In this document: one piece after another, positions 1-2,515 of the stretch
Numbering within the stretch: position 1 is the stretch's first letter
Layout: the number at the start of each line of letters is the position of its first letter
Assembly (NCBI RefSeq): GCF_900302465.1
Contig: NZ_OMOR01000001.1
Location: 2,542,001 to 2,606,000, forward strand
DNA from: Ascidiaceihabitans donghaensis
Lineage (GTDB): Bacteria > Pseudomonadota > Alphaproteobacteria > Rhodobacterales > Rhodobacteraceae
Length of the DNA stretch: 64,000 bases
Direction: 5' to 3'
Position numbers and translations under genes: made by a program
Notes under the pieces: generated by a model
Databases searched by the model: none
The model's input: only the letters and a program-made list of their open reading frames with translations
What the model was told of the DNA's origin: nothing

Positions 1-684
1 AAAACCGCCTCCCTATGCGCTTTACCCATCCTGCTCATTGTTCTGAGCGGTGCTGTTCTTTTCGGTACGCAGCACCTCTTGCCAAAGGCAACGTTTCTTG
101 CCATTTCGCCTATCCCCAAAATCATCTCATGGGGCATTTACTTCATCGCTGTCGTGCTTTTGGCCGTGCGTTGGCACCGCTATGCTCTGCTGGGCACTGC
201 AAGCACGAAAATCAACACGACCTCTGCCTTCGCGCCTTTCAAAAAATATGCCCTCAACTCGGTCATCTTTTTCGTAATTGTGTTATTCTCAGCGCTTGCA
301 GTTATGGCGATATGGGCGATTGTCTTTACGCTGACTGGAACGACAGAAAGTATCGTCCGCTCACCAGTGCAAATGCTTCTTCCGGTTTTGATGTATTTAG
401 TCGCAATTTGGATTGGATTGCGCATCTCATTAATCCTACCCGCCGCATCACTTGAAAAAAAGATGTCCATAAAAGACAGCTGGGCCGCGACGGCCACAAT
501 AAAGTGGGCAGCCTTCGCAGCCTACTTGATAATCTTCATTGCTTTCACACTCATAGGAATACTCCTGAATGAAGCGATAGGGGAAATCGGTAAGAGCTTT
601 GTAGCCTTTGCTCAAACCCTATTTTCACTAAGCCTAATTAGAGTAATCTACGCTAAGCTCGTGCAAAACGACACAGCGGCTTAA
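1..684 (+). CDS. Integral membrane protein, 5' end outside the window
   Basis: No family recognised. The frame is open from the left edge and stops at TAA 682-684, so the true start lies outside. A TTG at 79 is the first usable start inside, but it would cut off a hydrophobic stretch encoded from about base 19 (ALPILLIVLSGAVLFG). About five hydrophobic segments are visible over 227 residues, with short polar loops, which points to an inner-membrane protein. The gene is AT-richer than its neighbours. Its stop lies in the TTAA at 681-684, which also carries the stop of the opposite-strand Mrp gene, so the two genes converge with a 4-bp overlap. Function is unknown. Confidence 0.7.
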   Translation, partial: KTASLCALPILLIVLSGAVLFGTQHLLPKATFLAISPIPKIISWGIYFIAVVLLAVRWHRYALLGTASTKINTTSAFAPFKKYALNSVIFFVIVLFSALAVMAIWAIVFTLTGTTESIVRSPVQMLLPVLMYLVAIWIGLRISLILPAASLEKKMSIKDSWAATATIKWAAFAAYLIIFIAFTLIGILLNEAIGEIGKSFVAFAQTLFSLSLIRVIYAKLVQNDTAA

Positions 685-1751
685 GCCATCCCACCGTCAA
701 TCAAGCCTTTGGCGATCTGCGCATAGGCCTGCGCCATCGGCCCGTCGCCTGCTGCAATCGGTGTGCCGCCGTCGCCCGCAAGGCGCGTGTCCAGATCAAT
801 CGGCAACGCCCCAAGCAATGGCACGCCCATCTTGTCGGCCTCGGCGGCAACTCCGCCCTGCCCGAAAATCTGATGTTCTGACCCGCAATCGGGGCAGACA
901 AACATCGACATGTTTTCGATCAGGCCCAGTACTGGCGTCTTGAGCGTCGCAAACATATCCAGTGCCTTGCGCGCATCAATCAGCGCCACGTCTTGCGGCG
1001 TGGACACCACAATCGCGCCTGTCAGCTCGGACTTGGTACATAGTGTCAGTTGCACGTCACCTGTGCCCGGGGGCAAATCGACAAGCAGAACATCCAGTTC
1101 GCCCCACTCCACCTGCCCCAGCATTTGCTGTAACGCCCCCATCAACATAGGGCCACGCCAAACCACCGCCTTGCCTTCTTCCATCATGAAACCGATAGAC
1201 ATCAGCGTCACACCATGAGCGTGCAAGGGAATGATCGTTTTGCCATCCGGCGACGCGGGGCGTTTGTTCACACCCATCATACGCGGTTGCGAGGGGCCGT
1301 AGATGTCGGCGTCCAGCAGGCCAACTTTGCGGCCCTGTTTGGCCAAGGCGACGGCAAGGTTTGAAGACACAGTAGATTTGCCGACGCCACCCTTGCCCGA
1401 TCCAATCGCCAAAATGCGCTGTACGCCGGACGGCTTGGTTGGGCCGTCTTGTGGCTTGGGGTGGCCCCCGATTTTCAAGTTGGGCGGCGGGGCTTTTGCG
1501 GCGGGGCCATGCGCTGTCAATGCGGCAGACACTTTAGACACCCCGTCCAATTCCATCACAACGGCTTCTGCGGCTTTGCGCGCCCCTTCCATCTGGGCGG
1601 CGATTTCGGGCGACGGTGCCTCAACCACAAAACTGACGCTGTCGCCGTTGATCGTGACTGCTCGGATCATGTCCCGACTGACCAGTGTATCGCCGCCAGG
1701 CAGCCCCACACGGGACAAAGCGGATAGGACGTCTTCTTTGGTCACGGACAT
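681..1751 (-). CDS. apbC: Mrp/NBP35 (ApbC) family Fe-S cluster carrier ATPase
   Basis: P-loop ATPase expected to bind and transfer Fe-S clusters to apoproteins in the cytoplasm. The 356-residue product has an N-terminal DUF59/MIP18-like domain (about residues 5-80), a Pro/Lys-rich linker, then the deviant Walker A GSGKGGVGKST at about 117-127. It also has LLDADIYGPSQPRM (switch I region), LLVDLPPGTGD (Walker B region) and the cluster-binding CPDC pair at about 286-289. The start MSVTKED (ATG at 1751) is chosen over an upstream in-frame start because AAGGAG lies about ten bases before it. Length and domain order are normal for the family. It is transcribed alone on the minus strand. Confidence 0.95.
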   Translation of the reverse strand: MSVTKEDVLSALSRVGLPGGDTLVSRDMIRAVTINGDSVSFVVEAPSPEIAAQMEGARKAAEAVVMELDGVSKVSAALTAHGPAAKAPPPNLKIGGHPKPQDGPTKPSGVQRILAIGSGKGGVGKSTVSSNLAVALAKQGRKVGLLDADIYGPSQPRMMGVNKRPASPDGKTIIPLHAHGVTLMSIGFMMEEGKAVVWRGPMLMGALQQMLGQVEWGELDVLLVDLPPGTGDVQLTLCTKSELTGAIVVSTPQDVALIDARKALDMFATLKTPVLGLIENMSMFVCPDCGSEHQIFGQGGVAAEADKMGVPLLGALPIDLDTRLAGDGGTPIAAGDGPMAQAYAQIAKGLIDGGMA

Positions 1752-1992
1752 ATGGCGCGTCTCCTTTAATGTAGTCACTGGTGTAATTGTGCTTTTTGAA
1801 CAAAAGAACAAGGCATTCCGTCAAGGCCTACTTAATTCGCAAACCGCATTAATATTAAGCATTTGAATTTCAAGGTTAATGCTATGCAATTGCTGCATGG
1901 CAGCATTGAAAAACTAATCATTGTGCAGGCGCAGCATTGGCATATGTTACCCCTAACGAACGACGCAGTAGCCAACGAAAGACGAGATAATC

Positions 1993-2217
1993 ATGGCATA
2001 CTTTACAGACACAAACGCACGCAACGACCTGACCGGTCGCGTATTGGCAACACTGGCACAATGGCTTGACGCCGCAGCGACACGTCGCGCAAAGCGCCGC
2101 GTTTATCGCGCCACGTTCAATGAGCTGGCCAGCCTGACCAACCGCGATCTGGCTGATCTGGGCATCAACCGCAGCGAAATCAAACGCTTGGCCTATGAGG
2201 CCGCGTACCTGAACTAA
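1993..2217 (+). CDS. DUF1127 small basic protein (CcaF1-like) upstream of CcsR-type sRNAs
   Basis: A 74-residue, Arg-rich protein with a C-terminal DUF1127 motif: RVYRATFNELASLTNRDLADLG followed by INRSEIKRLAYEAAY. What is seen: the ORF is followed within 11 nt by a run of CUCCUCCC-loop hairpins. What is known: in Rhodobacter sphaeroides a DUF1127 gene (CcaF1) is cotranscribed with the stress-induced CcsR small RNAs, and the protein is reported to bind RNA and affect their processing. The same arrangement here implies the mRNA is the precursor of the small RNAs. The start ATG has only a weak purine-rich Shine-Dalgarno stretch (GAAAGACGAG). A second DUF1127 gene at 43035-43262 lacks the RNAs. 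Confidence 0.9.
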   Translation: MAYFTDTNARNDLTGRVLATLAQWLDAAATRRAKRRVYRATFNELASLTNRDLADLGINRSEIKRLAYEAAYLN

Positions 2218-2228
2218 GACAACTGAAA

Positions 2229-2306
2229 CAGGCGCTTCTTTCCTCCTCCCTTGAAGCGTCTGCTTTACGCGGTGACATCTTTCTCCTCCCTTTAGGATGT
2301 CACCGC
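2229..2306 (+). ncRNA. CcsR/cuckoo-family sRNA, copy 1 (two CUCCUCCC-loop hairpins)
   Basis: Two stem-loops six bases apart. Hairpin 1 has CAGGCGCTTC 2229-2238 paired with GAAGCGTCTG 2253-2262 (one G-U pair) and CCTCCTCCC at 2242-2250 in the loop. Hairpin 2 has GCGGTGACATC 2269-2279 perfectly paired with GATGTCACCGC 2296-2306 and CTCCTCCC at 2283-2290 in the loop. Anti-Shine-Dalgarno-like loops on paired hairpins define the Rhodobacterales CcsR (cuckoo) family. RNA is inferred to arise by processing of the DUF1127 transcript. Confidence 0.85.
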
Positions 2307-2347
2307 ATTTTTACACCGGACCTAATAGTCCAAAGACACAACCGGAT

Positions 2348-2421
2348 CAGGCGCCCTCTCCTCCCTTGGTGCGTCTGTGCATAGCGGCAGCATCTTTCTC
2401 CTCCCATTGAGATGCTGCCGC
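2348..2421 (+). ncRNA. CcsR/cuckoo-family sRNA, copy 2
   Basis: Hairpin 3 pairs 2348-2356 with 2368-2377 (one bulged T) and has CTCCTCCC at 2358-2365 in its loop. Hairpin 4 pairs GCGGCAGCATC 2384-2394 perfectly with GATGCTGCCGC 2411-2421 and has CTCCTCCC at 2398-2405. The six-base spacer between the hairpins matches copies 1 and 3. The 41 bases separating this copy from copy 1 contain a small GGAC/GTCC hairpin and no ORF. Confidence 0.85.
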
Positions 2422-2435
2422 ATACTGCACCCAAT

Positions 2436-2515
2436 AACCTGCAGGGTCTCTCCTCCTCCCTGACGCTGCAGGTTGATCAAGACGGCGGTCGCTCCTCCCA
2501 GCGGCCGTCGTTTTT
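2436..2515 (+). ncRNA. CcsR/cuckoo-family sRNA, copy 3
   Basis: Hairpin 5 pairs AACCTGCAG 2436-2444 with CTGCAGGTT 2466-2474 and has CCTCCTCCC at 2452-2460. Hairpin 6 pairs GACGGC 2481-2486 with GCCGTC 2504-2509, plus an inner CGC/GCG, with CTCCTCCC at 2492-2499. It runs straight into a T5 tract, so it doubles as the terminator. The spacer between the two hairpins is again six bases. Confidence 0.85.
2481..2515 (+). terminator. Intrinsic terminator of the DUF1127-CcsR transcript
   Basis: Stem GACGGC/GCCGTC with an inner CGC/GCG, directly followed by TTTTT at 2511-2515. The same hairpin is the second stem-loop of sRNA copy 3, the usual arrangement for the last copy of a CcsR array. Confidence 0.75.

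Follow-up and report, generated by a model that had tools for sequence, protein, structure and literature searches.

The window, by which we mean the whole 64 kb stretch of DNA analysed here, carries directly behind a short DUF1127 gene a three-copy array of CcsR/cuckoo small RNAs, a known kind of locus and an ordinary one for its group. The gene neighbour, the two-hairpin modules, their loops, the terminator, the sub-gathering Rfam matches and a covariance model built from relatives all agree with this reading. The array itself being an expected CcsR relative, the part worth following is a conserved activator-like site upstream of the gene.

Six hairpins with CUCCUCCC loops lie within positions 2229-2512, and CTCCTCCC occurs in all six loops (at 2243, 2283, 2358, 2398, 2453 and 2492), with the 9-base form CCTCCTCCC in two of them, those of the first and fifth hairpins. 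Both the motif count and the folding place this arrangement beyond chance: CTCCTCCC is present seven times in the 64 kb against 1.03 expected, a number reached in none of 100 shuffles, and six of these seven copies fall in the array, inside 257 bases and on one strand; the folding energy of 2218-2516 is -132.6 kcal/mol against -78.3 +/- 5.1 for 200 shuffles, none of which was as low (z -10.6). The hairpins form three CcsR-like modules on the forward strand, recognised by their fold and by the covariance model described below. Module 1 (2229-2306) comprises hairpins 2229-2262 and 2269-2306, module 2 (2344-2421) hairpins 2348-2377 and 2384-2421, and module 3 (2436-2515) hairpins 2436-2474 and 2481-2512, the second of which runs into TTTTT at 2511-2515 and is the terminator of the array. 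With the outer weak pairs left out, the spacers within the modules are all of six bases (CTTTAC 2263-2268, TGCATA 2378-2383, GATCAA 2475-2480); the automatic stem caller extends the stems further and so returns spacers of 1, 6 and 3, and the core stems were used instead. Folded singly, the hairpins of the three modules have energies (kcal/mol) of -14.6/-20.5, -12.4/-23.3 and -20.0/-21.7, so that the second of each pair is the stronger one.

The strong stems of copies 1 and 2 read GCGG-TGA-CATC/GATG-TCA-CCGC and GCGG-CAG-CATC/GATG-CTG-CCGC, respectively, three adjacent pairs having changed on both sides in compensation. The first and middle pairs of hairpins resemble each other, both containing CAGGCGC...GCGTCTG and GCGG...CCGC, and may have come about by local duplication. 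An earlier note, made from the letters of this DNA, had described six hairpins sharing a loop motif, constant six-base spacers, a terminator as the last hairpin, and stems that vary between copies under constant loops, all of it behind a DUF1127 gene, and this description holds.

The gene in question (1993-2217, forward strand) encodes a CcaF1-like DUF1127 protein of 74 aa, which matches PF06568 at 48.1 bits (cut-off 23.3). Upstream of it lies an mrp/NUBPL-like ATPase gene (684-1811, reverse strand), and a nitroreductase-family gene is found downstream of the array. Loci for comparison were gathered through the DUF1127 protein, 12 from named records (relatives in Litoreibacter, a Roseobacter MAG, Paracoccus, Kandeliimicrobium and Methylobacterium), 30 fetched from 61 whole genomes (31 of them matching) and three own paralogues, to a total of 45 with the own locus included. 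Within the 1.5-3 kb to which these loci reach out, an mrp-like gene stands upstream in 27 of the 45, all of them among the 30 in which hairpin pairs were found, and a nitroreductase gene is present in two (L022 and L023). The own genome has four DUF1127 genes above the cut-off, and one of the other three, L001, showed a single TCCTCCC hairpin in a relaxed scan. At L045 (G018:C6:19595-22759) we observed three consecutive DUF1127 matches and 12 TCCTCCC hairpins in the locus.

Family membership was examined by covariance search, as the earlier note had proposed. At gathering scores the Rfam models report only two tRNAs in the window; below gathering, the best matches in the region are ar14 (RF02344; 52.7 bits against a gathering score of 58.8, E 5.6e-9 over 381 bases, at 2377-2516) and CcsR1 (RF02791; 31.7 bits against 65.3, E 4.5e-6 over 381 bases). 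We read the missed gathering score as low sensitivity of Rfam rather than as exclusion from the family, because among 20 arrays tested at gathering, own locus included, ar14 recovers three and CcsR1 none; for the same reason, annotation by the curated Rfam models will often miss such loci. A model free of the window, R1, was built from 38 modules of relatives chosen for alignment among 91 distinct hairpin pairs outside the window. Its eight base pairs all come from the strong stem, since the weak stems of the modules would not align. R1 finds all three modules, at 50.5, 42.9 and 43.0 bits (the last match spanning 2439-2512), the next match in the window scoring 13.3. Over the whole genome of 4.08 Mb, where 150 of the 683 first-look candidates were scored, the three modules have E values of 5.1e-8 to 2.4e-6 and the runner-up reaches 20.0 bits (E 0.27). 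Likewise, the pattern CTCCTCCC-N24..54-CTCC has five matches in the own genome, four in the array and one elsewhere, against one for the reversed control. As the R1 runner-up is weak and the pattern search stays mostly within the array, the window's array looks like the only one of its kind in this genome.

The alignment behind R1 shows covariation of the strong stem among relatives. All eight pairs are changed on both sides, against 5.1 +/- 1.1 in shuffled alignments (5 of 500 reach eight) and 3-7 in slid controls, and the cells with double-sided change number 43, against 9.8 +/- 2.5 shuffled and 3-10 slid. The covariation score is 0.541 against 0.263 +/- 0.018; the proportion of paired cells, 95.4%, is biased upwards, because the rows were picked for having stems.

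Copy number among relatives, a comparison that the earlier note had also called for, varies widely. A relaxed scan for hairpins with the TCCTCCC core found at least one pair in 30 of the 45 loci, own locus included, and these 30 hold 1-7 pairs and 2-14 hairpins each. Ten loci of the window's genus, in which the scan script undercounts terminal pairs, were also read by eye: three pairs are present in the window and in L031, and each of the other eight has one proximal pair and one terminal pair bearing the terminator. The note had stressed three copies rather than the four of Rhodobacter sphaeroides; the three are borne out, but the number is unremarkable in relatives that range from one to seven. 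L006 carries, in addition to the pair that follows its DUF1127 gene, another one (2642-2719) situated before both the gene and the upstream element described below.

Among known systems, the CcaF1-CcsR1-4 locus of R. sphaeroides (RF02791, CIN1) likewise has a small DUF1127 gene and, behind it, sRNAs in tandem, each of two hairpins whose loops are anti-Shine-Dalgarno, and a closing terminator; by the published description it carries four CcsR copies, against the three in the window. The cuckoo family (SmelA075/SmelA099), with ar14, has CCUCCUCCC loops, variable stems and a varying number of hairpins, as does the window; the sRNA NfeR1 of Sinorhizobium meliloti we take to be a member of ar14. 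The cuckoo idea, as set out in section 2.7 of PMC3927594, is one of anti-Shine-Dalgarno loops on variable stems in a variable number of modules. NfeR1, according to PMC10746234, is a trans-acting sRNA with three anti-Shine-Dalgarno motifs and a sigma-70 promoter, whereas the window has a DUF1127 gene followed by three two-hairpin modules. The two-hairpin modules, CCUCCUCCC-type loops and variable stems of the window are those of CcsR/cuckoo RNAs, and the array directly behind a short DUF1127 gene, with a terminator at its end, is the CIN1 arrangement; together with the R1 matches, this supports the CcsR/cuckoo reading that the note had given.

Upstream of the gene, the element ATGCAATTGCTGCATGGCAGCATTG (1884-1908, forward strand) forms a footprint conserved in the genus and has the LysR-type T-N11-A form, with TGCA-N6-GCAT at 1885-1898. 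A 25-base motif, derived from the genus alignment and other loci, was scored at 20 informative positions over 450 bases upstream. At least 15 of the 20 positions agree in all 30 loci with pairs, a match that no shuffle equals (200 shuffles of single bases for each locus), and in two of the 15 loci without pairs (L027, with two scanned hairpins and no pair, and the paralogue L001), the remaining ones scoring 11-14; this contrast is partly circular, because the motif was derived from such loci, and is inflated by relatedness, because six of the 15 pairless loci are from Methylobacterium. The strict form TGCA-N6-GCAT is found in 19 of 32 loci. At L001 (C1 about 1224500-1225200) the match, of 16 positions in 20, lies 351 bases before the Pfam match, and by eye a terminator-like hairpin stands between element and gene, the single TCCTCCC hairpin following behind the gene.

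The element was also sought independently of the gene. The pattern TGCA-N6-GCAT-N20..24-TTGTGCA matches in 70 of 149 genomes of the family (63 once, seven twice), the other 79 having no exact match, and the reversed pattern matches in one. Of the 77 sites, 30 were retrieved; a DUF1127 match follows in 26, and 24 of these also show two or more TCCTCCC hairpins. Three of the 24 (L175, L179 and L201) had already been used, and among the 27 previously unused ones 21 lead such a gene with hairpins; the four sites without a DUF1127 match also lack, by eye, the AGCAGCATTG part. The reversed pattern may understate chance, because near matches to the element are common in the genome: ATGCAANTGCTGCAT, its first half, has 79 own-genome matches with up to two mismatches against 12 reversed, and TGCATGGCNGCATTG, its second half, has 130 near matches against 11 reversed, with one more exact occurrence outside the element. 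Exact ATGCAANTGCTGCAT occurs once in the own genome, at the 1884-1908 element, and its four one-mismatch sites all fall within reading frames at least 90 codons long. None of the literature titles listed concerns a LysR site at CcsR genes, though primary papers may mention the upstream element.

Behind the element a putative RpoHI/RpoHII-like core promoter (1921-1948, forward strand) has TTG at 1921-1923 and TAT at 1943-1945, from which transcription would start near 1955. The same layout, with TTG 12-13 bases after the element and TAT or CAT 20-24 bases after TTG, recurs in 28 of 32 loci. PMC10673084 gives the RpoHI/RpoHII consensus as -35 TTG and -12 TAT for another DUF1127 gene, rsp_0557, and PMC10253847 reports an RpoHI/RpoHII promoter for ccaF1-CcsR of R. 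sphaeroides. The TTG/TAT layout fits this consensus, and dependence on RpoH may be expected here by analogy with R. sphaeroides.

The form of the element is one that it has in common with the promoters of LsrB/VtlR-controlled sRNA and DUF1127 genes of Rhizobiales. According to PMC10746234, LsrB activates NfeR1 from a TGCA-N6-GCAT site at -72 to -57; given the inferred start at 1955, the window's TGCA-N6-GCAT (T-N11-A) would lie at about -70 to -57, that is, within the same 57-72 bases upstream. The reverse complement of 1894-1908 moreover agrees in 14 of 15 bases with the VtlR site quoted in PMC12595884, a resemblance modest by itself, because the runner-up in the 64 kb has 13 of 15. VtlR is reported, in PMC12595884 among others, to activate DUF1127 genes and AbcR-type sRNAs. 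PMC11975290 reports LsrB solely from Rhizobiales; because of that reported restriction, the protein reading the window's putative LysR-type site may be either an LsrB-like protein or another LysR protein using the same site. A search with RF00519 (suhB) matched 63 of 115 genomes of the class, and 20 loci were fetched as possible AbcR-LsrB neighbourhoods; in those inspected among the 20, a LysR-like protein motif revealed no LysR gene beside the matches.

Taken together, by far the most convincing explanation is a CcaF1-CcsR (CIN1/cuckoo) locus that holds three copies of the sRNA and would act in stress repression by loop pairing. A single transcript would be made from the RpoH-type promoter, probably with the assistance of a LysR-type activator at 1884-1908, and would be translated into the small DUF1127 protein. 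Cleavage between the modules, which in R. sphaeroides is the work of RNase E and involves the DUF1127 protein, would then yield sRNAs of about 75 nt, each consisting of two hairpins, one weaker than the other. Their CUCCUCCC loops may bind GGGAGGAG-type Shine-Dalgarno sequences by base pairing and so keep metabolic mRNAs from being translated under stress. PMC10253847, PMC8625941 and PMC8307010 describe the locus of R. sphaeroides, how RNase E processes it, the DUF1127 protein and the CIN1 name, and processing by RNase E at the window's array is transferred from there. The part of the DUF1127 protein in processing is uncertain, because the DUF1127 proteins of A. tumefaciens and of Salmonella (YjiS) are reported to make protein-protein contacts, with no evidence of RNA binding reported for YjiS.

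The same hairpins could instead serve mainly as stabilisers or terminators in the 3'-UTR of the DUF1127 mRNA rather than as trans-acting sRNAs. They begin right after the stop codon, ATTTTT stands directly after hairpin 2 and the array closes with a terminator, as such a role would lead one to expect; yet it needs neither constant anti-Shine-Dalgarno loops nor strong stems that covary in relatives, the 2-14 hairpins per locus with pairs would be unnecessary for stabilisation, and the R. sphaeroides homologues are, according to the papers just cited, processed trans-acting sRNAs, so that we give this account very little weight. Just as improbable, in our estimate, is that the CUCCUCCC loops are mainly decoys for protein or ribosomes rather than partners of particular mRNAs, even though many identical loops on one transcript suit a sponge and the R. 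sphaeroides DUF1127 protein is stated in PMC10253847 to bind RNA. Against decoys stand the mRNA targets published for CcsR (PMC8307010) and for NfeR1 (PMC10746234), and the dependence of NfeR1 silencing on the loop seed that the latter source describes.

If the loops of the CcsR-like sRNAs do pair with mRNAs, the own genome offers some leads. GGGAGGAG-N3..9-ATG occurs at ten sites (two in the reversed control), and at two of the ten it is antisense to the array; of the other eight, three precede frames of 21-46 aa and five precede frames of 127 aa or more, namely those for acetyl-CoA synthetase (acs), a DctP-type binding protein, a flavocytochrome c sulfide dehydrogenase flavoprotein, a response regulator receiver and a branched-chain amino acid/urea-type permease. 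GGGAGG or longer stands before a start in 11 of 16 acs loci of the same family (L092-L107, own included) and the full eight bases in four of those 11, two of the four (L102 and L106) being visual readings at an upstream ATG overlooked by the script's anchor; before the response regulator the eight bases are found in two of 18 loci. The GGGAGG figure being a raw count, and the response regulator having the eight bases in just two of 18, acs, the response regulator and the other GGGAGGAG genes remain candidate targets, that is, leads. The GGGAGGAG Shine-Dalgarno sequences lie at C1:1440856-1440873 (acs) and at C1:2664113-2664131 (the response regulator, receiver-only), the latter gene adjoining a reading frame that by eye looks XRE-like; 7-8 kb separate the relatives of acs and the response regulator in G012 and G014.

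Concerning the upstream region, we lean slightly towards a dedicated, family-wide DUF1127-CcsR promoter that combines an RpoH-type core with the site of an LsrB-type activator or of a LysR protein substituting for it. If this is true, anti-Shine-Dalgarno sRNAs would be under redox or metabolic control through a site common to the Rhizobiales and the window's family. The activator-like site provides a handle on the signals that switch these sRNAs on, besides the RpoH-type sigma factors.
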